Positions 14,907 to 27,039 of a stretch of DNA of 64,000 bases are shown piece by piece. How positions within the stretch are numbered: position 1 is the first letter of the stretch; the number at the start of each line of letters is the position of its first letter. Both the position numbers and the translations under genes were made by a program. Origin of the DNA: Methylorubrum thiocyanatum (GTDB lineage Bacteria > Pseudomonadota > Alphaproteobacteria > Rhizobiales > Beijerinckiaceae). The notes under the pieces are model-generated. The model did not search any database, was not told the origin of the DNA, and worked only from the letters and a program-made list of their open reading frames with translations. Location of the stretch: assembly GCA_014138645.1 (NCBI GenBank), contig JACJIB010000005.1, positions 419,975 through 483,974 of the forward strand, given 5' to 3'.

Positions 14907-15245
14907 ATGACCCGCTCGCCCCTTCGCACCCTCACCGCCTCGACGCCCCTGACCCTCCTGACGGTGGCGGTGCTGATCGCGCTCTTCGCCACGGTGGCGG
15001 TGAAGGGCTTCGACCTGACGGTGTTCGGCGCGCTGGCGCTCTACTTCGTGCTGTGGTGGACTTTCCTGTTCGCGATCCTGCCGCTGGGCAACGCGGCCGA
15101 GGCGGATCCGCAGCGGCTGGTGCCGGGCCAGGATCCGGGAGCGCCTGCGAGCCCGCGCCTGCGCGAGAAGGCCCTGCTGACGACGGTCCTAGCGGCCGTC
15201 GCGTTCTTCGCGGCCCTGCTGATCTTCCCGCTCGCCCGGCTCTGA
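14907..15245 (+). CDS. DUF1467 family membrane protein
   Basis: 112 residues from the ATG at 14907; a TTG three codons earlier is also in frame. There are three hydrophobic segments: about residues 12-32, 36-58 (ALALYFVLWWTFLFAILPLG) and the C-terminal 25. The stretch LYFVLWWTFLFAILPLG, followed by DPGAPASPRLREKALLTT, is the DUF1467 signature. Function unknown. It regularly sits between mce and proS in alphaproteobacteria, which gives the assignment strong context. An intrinsic terminator lies just upstream, so it may have its own promoter or depend on read-through. Confidence 0.85.
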   Translation: MTRSPLRTLTASTPLTLLTVAVLIALFATVAVKGFDLTVFGALALYFVLWWTFLFAILPLGNAAEADPQRLVPGQDPGAPASPRLREKALLTTVLAAVAFFAALLIFPLARL

Positions 15246-15277
15246 CGAAGCCGCGGCACCGCACAGCTCCAAAACAA

Positions 15278-15302
15278 AAAGCAAGGCACGAGGCCTTGCT
15301 TT
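15278..15302 (+). terminator. Intrinsic terminator after the DUF1467 gene
   Basis: AAAGCAAGGC (15278-15287) pairs perfectly with GCCTTGCTTT (15293-15302) around an ACGAG loop. The A- and T-flanked 10-base stem is usable in both directions. It lies 33 bases after the DUF1467 stop. Confidence 0.8.
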
Positions 15303-15679
15303 GGATAACCGAAGTATTTCCAGCCTAATTATATCGCGCATTTCTTGCGGCGCGTTGGCTGATTGTTCCTCCCAAGACCCGGACCGTGCGCTGCCTCGTG
15401 GGCTGCGACCATCACGGCGCTGCTTATAGGAAGAAGATTTCCCTTTGTCATCAGGGGAGAGACGGTTCGCAGCGTTTTTTTGCAGGGCGCGTGGCAAACG
15501 GCTTCCGCCGGGCGCGAAGGTCGAGGCGCGTCACCGCTTCGCCGGCTTCGTTCCGCCTTATTGCAGGTCGATCCTGTGTTCGTAGGGCGCTTGTATTTTG
15601 CAGGGGCAATGTGTTGTGTGCCCTCGCATGCCGGCCTGGCTCCTCCCCGGCTGCGCCCGCCGTCTTCCAAGGTCGAACG
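15303..15679. other. Gene-free stretch before proS
   Basis: About 375 bases without a convincing gene; open frames crossing it are Arg-rich and not protein-like. It starts with an AT-richer patch (near 15310-15345) after the terminator, a reasonable place for the proS-lolCD promoter, but I see no clean -35/-10 pair. No tRNA or riboswitch pattern was recognised; a T-box would not be expected in this lineage. Confidence 0.5.
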
Positions 15680-17005
15680 ATGCGTCTCTCCCGCTACTTC
15701 CTGCCGATCCTGCGCGAGACGCCCAAGGAAGCGGAGATCGTCTCGCACCGCCTGATGCTGCGCGCCGGCATGATCCGCCAGGAGGCCGCCGGCATCTACG
15801 CGTGGCTGCCGCTGGGTCTGCGCGTCCTCAACAAGGTCTGCGACGTGATCCGCGCCGAGCAGGACCGCGCCGGCGCCGTCGAGATCCTGATGCCGACGAT
15901 CCAGGCCGCCGATCTCTGGCGTGAATCCGGCCGCTACGAGGCCTACGGCAAGGAGATGCTGCGGCTGAAGGACCGGCATGAGCGCGAGCTGCTCTACGGC
16001 CCGACGGCGGAAGAGGTCGTCACCGAGATATTCCGCGCGAGCGCCCGCTCCTACAAGGATCTGCCCAAAAACCTCTACCAGATCTCGTGGAAGTTCCGCG
16101 ACGAGGTGCGCCCGCGCTTCGGCACCATGCGCTCGCGCGAGTTCCTGATGAAGGACGGCTACTCGTTCGACCTCGATCAGGCCGCCGCGCGCCACTCCTA
16201 CAACAAGGTCTTCGTCTCTTACCTCCGCACCTTCGAGACGCTGGGCCTCCGGGCGATTCCGATGCGCGCCGATACCGGCCCCATCGGCGGCGATCTCAGC
16301 CATGAGTTCATCATCCTGGCCAAGACCGGTGAGAGCGAGGTCTTCTGCGACCGCGCCTATCTCGACATGCCGGTGCCGCCCCCGTCCGTCGATTTCGACG
16401 ACGTCGCCGGCCTGCAGGGCGTGGTCGATTCCTGGACCTCGCACTACGCCGCCACCGACGAGATGCACGACGAGGCGGTCTTCGCCGAGGTGCCGGAAGC
16501 CTCGCGCCTCTCCGCCCGCGGCATCGAAGTCGGCCACATCTTCTATTTCGGCACGAAGTACTCGACCCCGATGAAGGCGGTCGTCACCGGCCCCGACGGG
16601 CAGGAACGGCCGGTCCATATGGGATCCTACGGCATCGGCCCGAGCCGGCTCGTGGCCGCGACCATCGAGGCGAGCCATGACGAGGCCGGCATCATCTGGC
16701 CGGACGCCATCGCCCCCTTCGATGTGGCGCTGATCAACCTCAAGGTCGGTGACGCTGCGTGCGATGCCGCCTGCGCCGAGATCCAGTCGGGGCTCGAGAC
16801 CGCCGGCCTCTCGGTGCTCTACGACGACCGCGACGAGCGGCCGGGCGCCAAGTTCGCCACCGCGGATCTCATCGGCCTGCCCTGGCAGGTGATCGTCGGC
16901 CCGAAGGGTCTGGCGGAGGGCAAGATCGAGCTGAAGCGCCGCGCCAGCGGGGAGCGCGAGACCCTCGATCCCGTCGATCTTCCCGCCCGCATCCGGCGCG
17001 TCTGA
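15680..17005 (+). CDS. proS: Prolyl-tRNA synthetase (short bacterial/mitochondrial type)
   Basis: 441 residues from the ATG at 15680 ([19 protein letters not shown]), matching the short alphaproteobacterial ProS without the editing insertion domain. The upstream in-frame extension is not protein-like. The enzyme charges tRNA-Pro. Class II motifs are visible: motif 2 with the [25 protein letters not shown] segment near residues 138-160, and motif 3 in [15 protein letters not shown] near residue 314. The C-terminal anticodon-binding domain ends at RIRRV. lolC follows 12 bases later. Confidence 0.97.
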
Positions 17006-17017
17006 GGACCGGCCGCG

Positions 17018-18337
17018 ATGGCACTCGCGTTGGGCAAGGGCGGCGTCTCCTTGAGAGGCGCCCTGGAACGGCTGAAGAATGCCCGCGCGAGCGCCTCGAC
17101 GCCGCCTTTCGCCGGATTCGAGTGGATCATCGCCGGCCGCTACCTGCGCGCCCGCCGCCGGGGCGGCGGGGTCTCGGTGGTGGCCCTGTTCTCGGTGCTC
17201 GGCATCGCGGTCGGCGTGGCGACCCTCATCATCGTGCTCTCGGTGATGAACGGCTTCCGCACCGAGTTGCGCTCCAAGATCATCGGGCTCAACGGCCACG
17301 TCTTCGCCGCGCCGATCGATCGGCTCTTCACCGATTACGTCGATCTCTCGGAGCGCCTGGAAAAGGTCGCGGGCGTGCGCGCCGTCGTGCCGATGGTGCA
17401 GGGGCAGGCCTTCGCCTCCTCGCCCTATGGCGGCTCCGGCGTGCTCGTGCGCGGCGTGCGCGAATCCGACCTGCCGAAGATCCCGGCCGTCTCCGGCGCG
17501 ATCAAGAGCGGCACGCTGGAGGGCTTCGACGACGGCCAGGGCGTGGCGCTGGGCAAGCGGCTCGCCGACGCCCTCGGCCTCCAGGCGGGCGATCAGGTCA
17601 CGCTGTCGACGCCGAAGGGCGCGAGCACGCCGTTCGGCACCGCGCCGCGCACCAAGACCTACACCGTCAAGGCGATCTTCGAGATCGGCGTGACCGATTT
17701 CGACACCACCATGGCCTTCATGCCGCTGGCCGAAGCGCAGGCCTTCTTCAACCGCGACGGCGACGTCAGCGTGATCGAGATCTATCTCGACGACGCCGAC
17801 GCGGTCGGCGAGATGCGCGAGCCCCTGGAGATGGCGGCCGAGCGCCCCGTGCTGCTCACCGACTGGCGCCAGACCAACCGCACCTTCTTCGGGGCGCTCG
17901 AGGTGGAGCGGAACGTGATGTTCCTCATCCTCAACCTCATCGTCATCGTCGCGACCCTGAACATCATCTCAGGTCTTATCCTTCTCGTGCGCGACAAGTC
18001 CTCGGACATCGCGATCCTGCGCACCATGGGGGCGACGCCGGGCACGATCATGCGGGTCTTCCTCATCAACGGAGCGCTGATCGGCCTTGTCGGTACGGCG
18101 ATCGGCCTCGTCGGCGGCGTGCTGTTCACCCTCAACATCAAGCCGATCCAGCGCACCCTGTTTCCCACGGCCTGGGACCCCACCGTGCGCTTCCTCGCCG
18201 AGATCCCGGCGGAGATGAACACGAGCGAGGTCGTCATTATCGTGATCACCTCGATCCTGCTGTCGCTGGTGGCGACCCTCTATCCCTCCTGGCGCGCCGC
18301 CCGGCTCGATCCGGTGCAGGCTCTGCGCTACGGCTGA
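17018..18337 (+). CDS. lolC: Lipoprotein-releasing ABC transporter permease LolC/E type
   Basis: 439 residues. This is the inner-membrane permease of the LolCDE system, which extracts lipoproteins for transfer to LolA. There is one membrane helix near residue 52 ([22 protein letters not shown]), a large periplasmic domain to about 300, and three C-terminal helices of the FtsX/MacB type. The motif [22 protein letters not shown] follows the first helix. Alphaproteobacteria often have a single LolC/E-like permease (LolF), and no second permease gene is present here, so it may act as a homodimer. It lies between proS and lolD. Confidence 0.93.
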
Positions 18338-18351
18338 CGGAACGCCCCGAT

Positions 18352-19062
18352 ATGGCTCAGACGAATGCCGGCGGCGCTCAGCCCGTGCCGGCCCTGTTCT
18401 TCGCGGGCGTCCAACGCCGCTACGCGCAGGCCGATGGCGCGCTCGAGATCCTGCGCGGCACCGATCTGGCGATCTGGCCGGGCGAGCTGGTCGCCCTGGT
18501 GGCGCCCTCGGGGGCCGGCAAATCGACCCTGCTCCACGTCGCCGGCCTCTTAGAGCGCCCGGACGGCGGCGAGGTCTATATCGGCGGCCAGCCGACCGCC
18601 GGCATGTCGGATGCCGAGCGCACCCGTCTGCGGCGCGAGGAGATGGGCTTCGTCTACCAGTTCCACCACCTGCTGCCGGAGTTCTCGGCGCTGGAGAACG
18701 TGGTGCTGCCCCAGCTCATCCGCGGACTCGCCCGCCGGGAAGCGGAGGCGCGGGCCGCCGAACTCCTGAGCTTTCTCGGCCTCAAGGACCGCCTGCCGCA
18801 CCGCCCGGCCGAACTCTCCGGCGGCGAGCAGCAGCGCGTCGCCATCGCCCGTGCGGTGGCCAACGGCCCGCGCCTGCTGCTCGCCGACGAGCCCACCGGC
18901 AACCTCGACCCGCAGACCGCGGGCCGGGTCTTCAGCATCCTGCTCCAACTCGTGCGCGCCTCCGGCCTCGCGGCCCTGATCGCGACCCATAACATGGAGC
19001 TTGCCGCGCGCATGGACCGCCGGGTGACGATCCGCGATGGGATGATCGAGCCGTTGGCTTAG
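18352..19062 (+). CDS. lolD: Lipoprotein-releasing ABC transporter ATPase
   Basis: 236 residues from the ATG at 18352, 14 bases after lolC. It powers lipoprotein release with LolC. Walker [10 protein letters not shown] is at about 51-59, the Q-loop lies in [18 protein letters not shown], the signature [14 protein letters not shown] is near residue 155 and Walker [13 protein letters not shown] near residue 176, with the switch His in IATHNMELA. Upstream in-frame codons belong to another reading frame of lolC. Confidence 0.96.
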
Positions 19063-19080
19063 ACAAGCGGGCTTGCTATC

Positions 19081-19098
19081 GTTGTCAAATATGACAAC
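19081..19098. promoter_or_regulatory. Palindromic operator of the toxin-antitoxin pair
   Basis: GTTGTCA (19081-19087) and TGACAAC (19092-19098) form a perfect 7-base inverted repeat around AATA. It ends 9 bases before the toxin ATG, the usual place for autorepression by an XRE antitoxin. The surrounding AT-rich stretch probably also holds the -10 element. Confidence 0.65.
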
Positions 19099-19107
19099 AT
19101 CGTCCGC

Positions 19108-19455
19108 ATGGCGCGACGAACCCGCCCGATTTCATGGATCAAGGCGGCTCGGAAAGCTTTCGAGACGTTCCCGCGTGACGCGCAGGACGAGTGCCTGAGG
19201 GCCCTCACCATTGCTGCGGAGGGGGAGCGGGCGGATATCGTCAAGCCGTTGCAGGGATTGGGCTCCGGCATCTGGGAGGTCGTTTTGCGTCATCGCAACG
19301 ATGCCTTTCGGGTCGTTTACGCCGTACAGATCGATGCCGATCTATGGGTCGTGCACGCCTTTCAGAAGAAATCAATCAGTGGGATCAAGACGCCGCAGCA
19401 CGAAATCGATGTCGTGCGTGAGCGCTTGAAGCGCCTGAAGGAGGCTCTTGCATGA
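19108..19455 (+). CDS. higB: HigB/RelE-type toxin (phage-derived Gp49-like family)
   Basis: 115 residues. The sequence fits the Gp49-like (HigB/RelE superfamily) toxins, which cleave mRNA on the ribosome. Diagnostic parts are the central GLGSGIWEVVLRHRNDAFRVVY, the hydrophobic strand DLWVVHAFQKKS and the helix TPQHEIDVVRERLKRLKEAL, which carries the Lys/Arg residues of the family. The toxin gene comes first, as in higBA, and overlaps the antitoxin by four bases (ATGA). GC is lower than in neighbouring genes, in keeping with acquisition between lolD and dnaE. Target and activity are inferred. Confidence 0.85.
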   Translation: MARRTRPISWIKAARKAFETFPRDAQDECLRALTIAAEGERADIVKPLQGLGSGIWEVVLRHRNDAFRVVYAVQIDADLWVVHAFQKKSISGIKTPQHEIDVVRERLKRLKEALA

Positions 19456-19754
19456 GCGAGGACTTCGAACTCATTCGCGGAACCGGCAATGTCTTTCGTG
19501 ATCTTGACCGCGAGGATGCGGATGCCGAGCAGCTCAAGGCCCTGCTGGCCGCTCAGATCATCGCTTGTCTCGATCGGCGTCATCTGACGGGCCAGGCCGC
19601 GAGAGAGGCTACGGGAATCGCGACGGCCGACTTTTCACGAATCCGGCGGGCTAAGCTCGATCGCTTCACAGTCGATCGTCTCATGAGCATCCTCAATCGC
19701 CTTGGACAGCAGGTTGATGTCTCCGTCACGCTTCGCGAGCGGCCGGCGGCCTGA
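19452..19754 (+). CDS. higA: XRE-family antitoxin (HigA type)
   Basis: 100 residues. A helix-turn-helix of the HigA2-like (HTH_37) kind is seen at about residues 40-80: LTGQAAREATGIATADFSRI followed by LDRFTVDRLMSILNRLG. The tail QQVDVSVTLRERPAA is typical of antitoxins paired with Gp49-like toxins. It starts inside the toxin gene, so the two are translationally coupled. It probably binds the palindrome at 19081-19098 and represses the pair. Confidence 0.85.
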   Translation: MSEDFELIRGTGNVFRDLDREDADAEQLKALLAAQIIACLDRRHLTGQAAREATGIATADFSRIRRAKLDRFTVDRLMSILNRLGQQVDVSVTLRERPAA

Positions 19755-19829
19755 ACCTTCCGCTGCAAAGACACAGTAGGAGGTTTTTAACCACGATCCC
19801 GATCGGCGCCGTTCTCAGGGCTTTACACA

Positions 19830-19844
19830 GAACAAAACAGGAAC
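19830..19844. promoter_or_regulatory. LexA-type SOS box (GAAC-N7-GAAC)
   Basis: GAAC (19830-19833), seven bases AAAACAG, then GAAC (19841-19844), followed by AAAA. This is the direct-repeat site of alphaproteobacterial LexA (GTTC-N7-GTTC on the other strand), including A-rich flanks like those of known sites. It lies 32 bases before a 34-codon frame and about 340 bases before dnaE. The bare pattern is expected about once per 64 kb by chance at this GC, so the call rests on position and flanks. Confidence 0.65.
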
Positions 19845-19850
19845 AAAAAT

Positions 19851-19870
19851 CACTCCACCAACACGGAGTG
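19851..19870 (+). promoter_or_regulatory. Hairpin covering the ribosome-binding site of the 34-codon gene
   Basis: CACTCC (19851-19856) can pair with GGAGTG (19865-19870) around an 8-base loop. GGAG at 19865-19868 is the best ribosome-binding site for the ATG at 19877, so the hairpin could dampen its translation. The stem is short, so this is tentative. Confidence 0.4.
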
Positions 19871-19876
19871 GAAGCC

Positions 19877-19981
19877 ATGACCAAGCGTGTGTTCCTCACC
19901 AGCGTCGTCGAGTTCACTGCCTTCGGCCTGCTCTTCGGTGCGGTCGCGCTCTGGGCGGTAGCCTTGGCGCCGATCCATTAA
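19877..19981 (+). CDS. 34-residue single-span membrane peptide, candidate SOS-induced division inhibitor
   Basis: A short gene of 34 codons from ATG to TAA. The peptide is basic at its N-terminus (MTKR), then hydrophobic from about residue 5 to 32 with one Glu at 12, enough for one membrane span, and ends APIH. GGAG lies 8 bases before the ATG and a LexA-type box 32 bases upstream. The size, single span and SOS box resemble SidA, the 29-residue SOS-induced inhibitor of Caulobacter that acts on FtsW/FtsN. I cannot compare the sequences here, so function is inference. The alternative is a non-coding leader of dnaE, but ribosome-binding site, start and clean hydrophobic content argue for translation. 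Confidence 0.55.
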   Translation: MTKRVFLTSVVEFTAFGLLFGAVALWAVALAPIH

Positions 19982-20185
19982 TCGATCCTGTTTCGTTCCC
20001 TGCGGCGGCGGGGGATGCACAGGAAAGTGTGGCCCCTGCGCCGAAGGCGGGAAATCGACCGCCGGATCTGATGCAGGCAGGGCACGGGCGGTGGATATCC
20101 CCGGCCCATGCGCCGAAGCGCATCGACTCCGTAACCTTGAATCGGGATCCTGGCCGGCCCCGTGAGGCCGAGCAAAAAGATCCCG

Positions 20186-23707
<3,522 letters not shown>

Positions 23708-23947
23708 GGCGGTCTCGATCCCAACGCTCAGGTAACCAATCCGATGAGCTTCGCAGGATATGGGCGTGACAGCACCTGTCGTGCCTCACCGCCGCCACAG
23801 CTCGGTGATTCTGCCAAGGTAAGGTTCGGCCAAACCCAAGGTGGCGGATGGGGACTCCGGTTGGCGGAGTTCGTCCGGCTCCGCGCGGCGACCGAAGCCC
23901 TGCGATTGCCGCGGCGCCGTACAAGGCTGCCGCTGATGGAGTGTGGA

Positions 23948-24733
23948 ATGACCGGACACGGTTTGAGAATGATCGCGGCCGCCGCCCTGGTGGGGCTGGC
24001 CGGCACGGCGCAGGCGGCGCAGTGCGGCAACACCGCCGCCGGTTTCGAGGCGTGGAAGGACGAGTTCGCCGCCGAGGCCAAGGGCCGTGCGAGCCCGGCG
24101 GCGCTGGCCGCGCTCGCCAACACCTCCTACTCCACGGCGACGATCTCGGCGGATCGCGGTCAGAAGAGCTTCAAGCTCTCGCTCGACCAGTTCCTGGCCA
24201 AGCGCGGCGGCAACACCATCGTCTCCCGCGGACGCGCGCTCAAGGCGCAGAACGCGGCGCTCTTCGCCTCGATCGAGCAGCGCTACGGCGTGCCGCCGGG
24301 CCCGCTTCTGGCGATCTGGGGCATGGAGACCGGCTTCGGCGCGGTGAAGGGCAACGTCAACACCCTCTCGGCGGTGGCCACGCTCGCCTATGATTGCCGC
24401 CGCTCGGCCTACTTCACCGACCAGCTCTACGCCGCGCTCAAGCTCGTCGACAGCGGCGTGCTGACGCCTGCGACCCGCGGCGCCGCCCATGGCGAGGTCG
24501 GCCACACCCAGTTCCTGCCCAAGAACGTCCTGACCTACGGCGTCGGCGGCAGCCTCGACAGCGCCCCGAACGCGCTGAACTCCACCGCCAACTTCCTGAA
24601 GGGCCACGGCTGGCAGCGGGGCGCGGGCTACCAGCCCGGCGAGCCGAACTTCGCTGCGATCCAGGGCTGGAACGCCGCCGGCGTCTATCAGCGCGCCATC
24701 GCGCTCCTCGGCGCCCGGATCGACGGGCAGTAA
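23948..24733 (+). CDS. Lytic murein transglycosylase (MltB/SLT_2 type)
   Basis: 261 residues from the ATG at 23948, chosen because a signal peptide follows directly (LRMIAAAALVGLAGTAQAA, cleavage about residue 23); an ATG four codons earlier is possible. The enzyme cuts peptidoglycan to anhydro-muropeptides in the periplasm. The catalytic Glu lies in LLAIWGMETGFGAVKGNVNT near residue 124, and GEVGHTQFLPKNVLTYGV near residue 184 is the second MltB signature. There is no lipobox, so it is probably soluble, and no C-terminal peptidoglycan-binding domain. Unlinked to its neighbours in function. Confidence 0.9.
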   Translation: MTGHGLRMIAAAALVGLAGTAQAAQCGNTAAGFEAWKDEFAAEAKGRASPAALAALANTSYSTATISADRGQKSFKLSLDQFLAKRGGNTIVSRGRALKAQNAALFASIEQRYGVPPGPLLAIWGMETGFGAVKGNVNTLSAVATLAYDCRRSAYFTDQLYAALKLVDSGVLTPATRGAAHGEVGHTQFLPKNVLTYGVGGSLDSAPNALNSTANFLKGHGWQRGAGYQPGEPNFAAIQGWNAAGVYQRAIALLGARIDGQ

Positions 24734-27024: not shown

Positions 27025-27039
27025 GTTCGTGCTATGTTC
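27025..27039. promoter_or_regulatory. LexA-type box (GTTC-N7-GTTC) upstream of parC
   Basis: GTTC (27025-27028), GTGCTAT, GTTC (27036-27039). It is 103 bases upstream of the parC ATG and 4 bases after the recO stop. Read on the other strand it is GAACATAGCACGAAC followed by AT, close to alphaproteobacterial SOS boxes. Chance occurrence cannot be excluded. Confidence 0.5.

Follow-up and report, generated by a model that had tools for sequence, protein, structure and literature searches.

A conserved micropeptide gene upstream of dnaE in Methylorubrum thiocyanatum, its SOS-type promoter, and its proposed relationship to Caulobacter SidA

Operator, promoter, and micropeptide frame

The window, that is, the whole 64,000-nucleotide stretch of Methylorubrum thiocyanatum DNA that was analyzed, contains upstream of dnaE an open reading frame (ORF) of 34 codons that is carried without annotation. 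The features of the locus are as follows.

19822..19827 (+), -35-like hexamer TTTACA, opening a promoter-like pair that spans 19822 to 19850
19830..19844 (+), LexA-type operator GAACAAAACAGGAAC, occupying the promoter spacer; GAAC-N7-GAAC in 37/37 same-genus genomes
19845..19850 (+), -10-like hexamer AAAAAT, 17 nt after TTTACA
19851..19870 (+), hairpin CACTCC...GGAGTG, able to mask the ribosome-binding site; not uniform in relatives
19865..19868 (+), GGAG ribosome-binding site, 8 nt 5' of the ATG, read from the sequence
19877..19981 (+), 34-residue micropeptide with a predicted single span, proposed SidA orthologue; ATG at 19877, TAA at 19979 to 19981
20186..23707 (+), dnaE, DNA polymerase III alpha subunit; Pfam PF02811, PF07733, and PF17657

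The operator is separated by 32 nt from the micropeptide ATG, and 204 nt lie between the micropeptide stop codon and the ATG of dnaE. The only promoter-like site in 19700 to 20250 was TTTACA-N17-AAAAAT (mean of 0.1 in shuffles), an arrangement that, from its sequence, would place a LexA-type operator within the micropeptide promoter, where LexA may bind. The promoter geometry was alike throughout Methylobacterium, with a best score of 7 to 9 out of 12 in 37/37 genomes (scores of at least 7 were obtained in 248/1,850 shuffles), and in other families it reached up to 11/12 (TTGACA-N17-CATAAT), with several loci at just 5 to 7. Three occurrences of GAAC-N7-GAAC were counted in the window, where 1.06 would be expected, and 141 genome-wide (5.6 Mb), where the reversed pattern gave 83. 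Therefore, the bare box is weak on its own, as an earlier note on this DNA had cautioned in giving a chance rate of about one per 64 kb.

The hydropathy maximum of the micropeptide was 2.19 over 18 residues, compared with 2.09 for SidA, and an AlphaFold2 single-sequence model gave one helix over residues 2 to 30 with a mean pLDDT of 94. The product is predicted to be a very short single-span membrane protein. The box, the 32-nt distance, the 34-codon frame, the GGAG site, and the single span, all of which the earlier note had described, were confirmed by the coordinates, the hydropathy, and the modeled helix. Its further proposal, a hairpin that hides the ribosome-binding site, held for the window (z of -3.2 against mononucleotide shuffles) but not uniformly for the 37 genomes, where z was below -1 in 17/37 with a mean of -0.87, and the CACTCC/GGAGTG-type stem was confined to close relatives; the hairpin was hence rejected as a uniform feature of the family. 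On the minus strand, one or more terminator-like repeats lie under the ribosome-binding site. Between lolD and the micropeptide lies a toxin-antitoxin pair, comprising genes for a Gp49/HigB-like toxin and an HTH_37 antitoxin (PF05973 and PF13744; window 19108 to 19754).

Elsewhere in this genome, 14 box regions were chosen from the genome-wide occurrences, mostly for A/T-rich spacers, and recognized SOS-type genes (imuA, radA, and ssb) were located beside the box in 3 of them. The imuA match, with an E value of 1e-12, was below the curated cutoff, and radA was identified from the submitted fragment. The box upstream of lexA is GAACAGGAGAGGAAC, and that upstream of recA, GAACAAAACAGGTAC, is one change away from the box of the micropeptide. 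A second GAAC-N7-GAAC in the window, GAACATAGCACGAAC at 27025 to 27039 (-), lies about 100 nt before the gene for topoisomerase IV subunit A (PF00521), and SOS control of decatenation through this site is possible from its sequence and position. In region L264 (1185 to 1951), the box GAACATAACAGGAAC precedes an ORF of 246 residues with no Pfam match, a candidate for a new SOS gene. About 16 kb separate two similar ORFs (L266 and L268; G000:C5, ~345 to 362 kb), each of which starts 140 to 165 nt from a GAACATA-type box; that of L266 had no NCBIfam match, and the pair is perhaps a duplicated SOS-linked gene or a prophage remnant.

Conservation, coding selection, and linkage to dnaE

The peptide was searched for in 61 genomes, comprising its own, 36 of the same genus, and 24 of other genera. 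It was found in all 37 same-genus genomes with E values of 6.4e-6 or better, and other genera gave five matches, all at noise level (E, 0.86 to 1.44). GAAC-N7-GAAC was located 5' of the ORF in each of the 37, and two more same-genus genomes from the order-wide search likewise carried both. Because the box and the ORF were kept in 37/37 genomes, the finding stands above chance. Selection was analyzed on the 34-codon frame across the same 37 genomes, giving a pN/pS of 0.455 in frame, compared with 1.03 and 1.77 when the frame was shifted, and a median Ka/Ks of 0.30. Third codon positions were the most variable, and the stop codons were mixed (17 TAG, 12 TAA, and 8 TGA). Therefore, it appeared that the frame is a translated gene under selection at the protein level. 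Two genomes (G018 and G021) lack a start codon at codon 1, and both have an in-frame ATG a few codons upstream. It is nearly certain that the micropeptide gene is genuine and conserved and that its promoter is of the SOS type.

The neighboring dnaE genes were located by tblastn. In 32/37 same-genus genomes, dnaE was found on the strand of the peptide, beginning 203 to 337 nt beyond the peptide start, and in one more (G013) the contig ends too early to show dnaE. In the other four (G008, G003, G033, and G004), the box and the peptide were kept and dnaE was absent within 1.5 kb. In G008, dnaE was not found in the 6 kb read, and lolD was located 2.4 kb upstream of the peptide on the same strand; lolD was also upstream in the other genomes where it was observed. 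It is probable that dnaE departed while the peptide and the box stayed put. The nearest named record was that of M. bullatum, with 83% over 99% of dnaE. Neither the peptide nor the box was present in the 1.5 kb before its dnaE; the gene in front of dnaE resembled an ABC transporter gene on visual inspection, and this locus may represent the other half of the dnaE relocation. As a separate observation (L287, 937 to 3030), the peptide gene of G008 is convergent with a pair of MotA/ExbB-like and OmpA-domain genes.

The Caulobacter sidA locus and counterparts in other families

For Caulobacter, PopZ was used as the bait, giving 80 loci of named records, mostly Caulobacter and Phenylobacterium, of which 26 were used; the dnaE locus was obtained from 25/26 genomes. 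An ORF of 29 to 30 residues was found directly before dnaE in all 25, with an exact GAAC-N7-GAAC 5' of it in 13 and GAAC-N7-GAAT in 22. In C. vibrioides OR37, the order was an inosine-uridine nucleoside hydrolase gene, an ORF of 29 residues, and dnaE. SidA is 29 residues long (PMC4211646), its locus tag is CCNA_02004 (PMC11034885), and CCNA_02005 is a nucleoside hydrolase (PMC3667746). Since this length and this adjacency agree with the order in OR37, the ORF before dnaE is sidA by place and length, rather than by comparison with the deposited SidA sequence. Whether Caulobacter sidA adjoins dnaE, a point raised by the earlier note, was thereby answered in the affirmative. The SidA trait of lying directly upstream of dnaE was observed in the window, in 32/37 same-genus genomes, and in 25/25 Caulobacter/Phenylobacterium dnaE loci.

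The order was sampled using the N terminus of the window DnaE as the query against 40 genomes, each of another family; dnaE was found in 39, and 29 loci were used. In 15/29 loci, the 450 nt upstream of dnaE contained a sense GAAC-N7-GAAC, compared with at most 1/29 for 11 scrambled motifs, at most 2/29 for other spacers (2 to 14), and 2/29 for the antisense box; in the other 14, no exact sense box was found within that distance. An ORF of 24 to 43 residues with a hydrophobic span followed the box in 13/15, and adding L075, where the box is located further up, brought the number to 14/29. The conservation of frame and box that the earlier note had proposed to check, both in relatives and before dnaE in other Rhizobiales, was observed within the genus and in about half of the other-family loci. 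In Sinorhizobium sp. K101 and Shinella sp. PSBB067, a box, a Shine-Dalgarno sequence, and an ORF of 28 residues precede dnaE, with the K101 peptide being MADFVRDLAAFASMSLFIVSISVIALGL. In L049, the exact box is 1 nt before the ATG and an upstream GAAC-N7-GTAC variant is the likelier operator, and in L074 an internal ATG was taken (32 residues), where the start could give 40 or 43. Two of the 15 loci with the box, L072 and L078, had no clear peptide. In these two and in L079, a sense box precedes dnaE and no clear small ORF is present; in all three, the SOS target may be dnaE itself, or the peptide may have been lost.

Beyond the order, 57 genomes of the class were sampled, with dnaE in 47 and 29 loci used. 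The sense box was found in 3/29 and the antisense box in 4/29, so the motif count is uninformative elsewhere in the class. Each of the three loci with a sense box (L107, L121, and L124) had an ORF, that of L124 (38 residues, 13 nt after the box) being excluded from the profile. Profile matches in four class loci (L132, L140, L142, and L156) and in another genus of the window's family (L141) had both the box and the ORF. When 297 genomes of the order were searched with the profile, strong matches came solely from the same genus (6/6), with a best E value outside the genus of 0.007, and position was therefore used in place of the profile search. Four peptides searched against NCBIfam and Pfam matched no curated family at E values up to 10. 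For the window peptide, PADLOC gave no match, PHROGs gave weak ones (E, 0.06 to 0.12), and tblastn gave none against plasmids and a single weak one against phages (E, 10), in two records of one phage.

The direct profile match between the Methylobacterium peptides and SidA was noise (hhalign E, 0.12), and HMM scores were similar to those of controls; neither method detected direct homology. The Rhizobiales peptides found by position appear, at the sequence level, to bridge the two. After removal of L044, L049, and L055, which had been found by profile, the bridge of 16 position-found peptides obtained scores of 23.4 with the Methylobacterium set and 18.9 with the SidA set, compared with maxima of 15.8 and 15.3 for column-shuffled bridges (200 shuffles each, 0/200 reaching the real scores). 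With the three profile-found peptides included, the medians were reached by 0/241 transmembrane-like controls, cleared of homologues, and by 0/1,200 or 0/1,000 residue shuffles; without them, they were reached by 1/1,200 and 1/1,000 residue shuffles. The SidA side is the weaker half, with a bridge-to-SidA hhalign probability of ~52 to 55%. In the reverse search, the Methylobacterium profile singled out the bridge peptides (median of 5.5; 0/241 controls and 12/760 shuffles), and the SidA profile did not (median of 1.0 bit; 25/241 controls as high). The shared core, assigned by eye, consists of a charged residue close to the N terminus followed by small and aromatic helix positions (e.g., KDxAALxALxLF and VEFTAFGLLF).

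Proposed function and comparison with known systems

The window micropeptide is likely to be the Methylobacterium orthologue of SidA and, as such, would be a LexA-repressed brake on FtsW and FtsN. The earlier note had suggested a functional homologue or analogue of SidA beside dnaE, a proposal supported by the conservation and by the ORFs found before dnaE throughout the Caulobacter/Phenylobacterium loci. SidA leaves Z rings undisturbed, makes contact with both FtsW and FtsN, and is proposed to keep FtsW/I/N in an inactive form (PMC4211646), and Caulobacter ΔlexA cells filament because sidA is on, whereas ΔlexA ΔsidA cells do not (PMC12700426). Given orthology, the window peptide should act likewise upon LexA cleavage. 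In undamaged cells, LexA bound to GAACAAAACAGGAAC, in the spacer of the -35/-10 pair, would block the promoter. RecA-triggered cleavage of LexA would free it, and the peptide would then be produced, probably together with the downstream dnaE, with which, judging from the layout, it is perhaps cotranscribed. The peptide would insert in the inner membrane and would keep the FtsW/FtsI/FtsN septal synthase inactive until repair is finished.

An SOS peptide of the TisB/DinQ kind would instead depolarize the inner membrane and slow growth without binding the divisome. Size, single span, and LexA control suit both kinds, and the minus-strand repeats under the ribosome-binding site are such as an antisense RNA might have; however, no Rfam match was found in 15000 to 24000 and no promoter-like minus-strand site in 19700 to 20250, while position and the profile bridge point to SidA, and this explanation is considered unlikely. 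It is quite improbable that the window peptide is a member of the SidA family whose target has shifted elsewhere in the envelope, e.g., to the elongation or polar growth machinery: the C-terminal half and the length are unlike those of SidA and direct similarity is undetectable, but the promoter, the charged N-terminal end, the helix, and the locus are similar across families.

The frame could also be an upstream ORF (uORF) or leader that modulates dnaE through its own translation, in which case the SOS promoter would in fact be that of dnaE. In addition to the position of dnaE as the next gene in most same-genus genomes, dnaE is among the LexA targets in Caulobacter and in an alphaproteobacterial analysis (PMC3323433), and uORF roles have been suggested for small ORFs (sORFs) in 5' untranslated regions (5'-UTRs), with sORF25 singled out as noteworthy (PMC10117765). 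The constant linkage to dnaE expected of a leader was not found, however. The retention of the peptide and the box in 4/37 genomes with no dnaE within 1.5 kb argues against a mere dnaE leader, as do the amino-acid-level selection on the peptide and the 204 nt separating it from dnaE, and this reading is held to be very unlikely. A chance ORF beside a chance box has in its favor the expected frequency of the box alone, and it is strongly opposed by the 37/37 conservation with purifying selection, leaving a negligible probability. The SidA orthologue is the preferred reading.

A broader interpretation, taken jointly, is moderately favored: rather than having been invented in Caulobacter, SidA would be an ancient checkpoint gene of the alphaproteobacteria with a tie to dnaE, with one LexA promoter that arrests division and can raise the replicative polymerase. 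The LexA site credited to dnaE would be the micropeptide's first, sORF25 of Sinorhizobium meliloti would be the same gene, and the peptide would have diverged past direct recognition, staying in place in one Methylobacterium clade when dnaE moved. To our knowledge, the division inhibitors of the SOS response have generally been presented as proteins that are unrelated to one another and specific to their lineages. In the open-access titles and abstract openings searched, no SidA homologue outside Caulobacter was reported, nor any link of sORF25 or of the LexA-dnaE connection to SidA. If the interpretation is true, one micropeptide checkpoint would be common to many Rhizobiales and Caulobacterales, perhaps further, and the damage checkpoint may have arisen earlier, and may occur more broadly, than has been supposed, its family having been overlooked because each copy has just 24 to 43 codons. 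This would account for the LexA sites at dnaE and for a reported sORF of unknown role, and the SidA-FtsW question could then be approached through dozens of natural variants, each set against its own FtsW.

Among known systems, TisB of Escherichia coli is an SOS-induced short single-span peptide, and DinQ of the same species is described likewise. Both are under antisense RNA control and are said to act on the membrane, whereas no Rfam RNA was found at the window locus, and the two were set apart by description. The Gram-positive YneA, SosA, and ChiZ resemble the proposed peptide as small SOS-induced membrane division inhibitors but, compared by description, are larger, some with LysM domains (PMC13396833). 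Low-confidence AlphaFold 3 models place these three and SidA on TM7 of FtsW, SidA on the opposite face (PMC13396833). The S. meliloti sORF25, one of 48 novel sORFs, is a small ORF in the dnaE1 5'-UTR and is likened by position alone; the account of it in PMC10117765 proposes a possible uORF function and names no SOS link. SidA of Caulobacter crescentus (CCNA_02004) differs from the window peptide in length (29 versus 34 residues), in giving no direct sequence match, and in its upstream neighbor, a nucleoside hydrolase gene in C. vibrioides OR37 and lolD with the toxin-antitoxin pair in the window. In both cases, the arrangement is that of an SOS-regulated, single-span inner membrane micropeptide directly upstream of dnaE (PMC4211646 for the function of SidA), by observation for the position and by prediction for the window peptide's regulation and membrane span.
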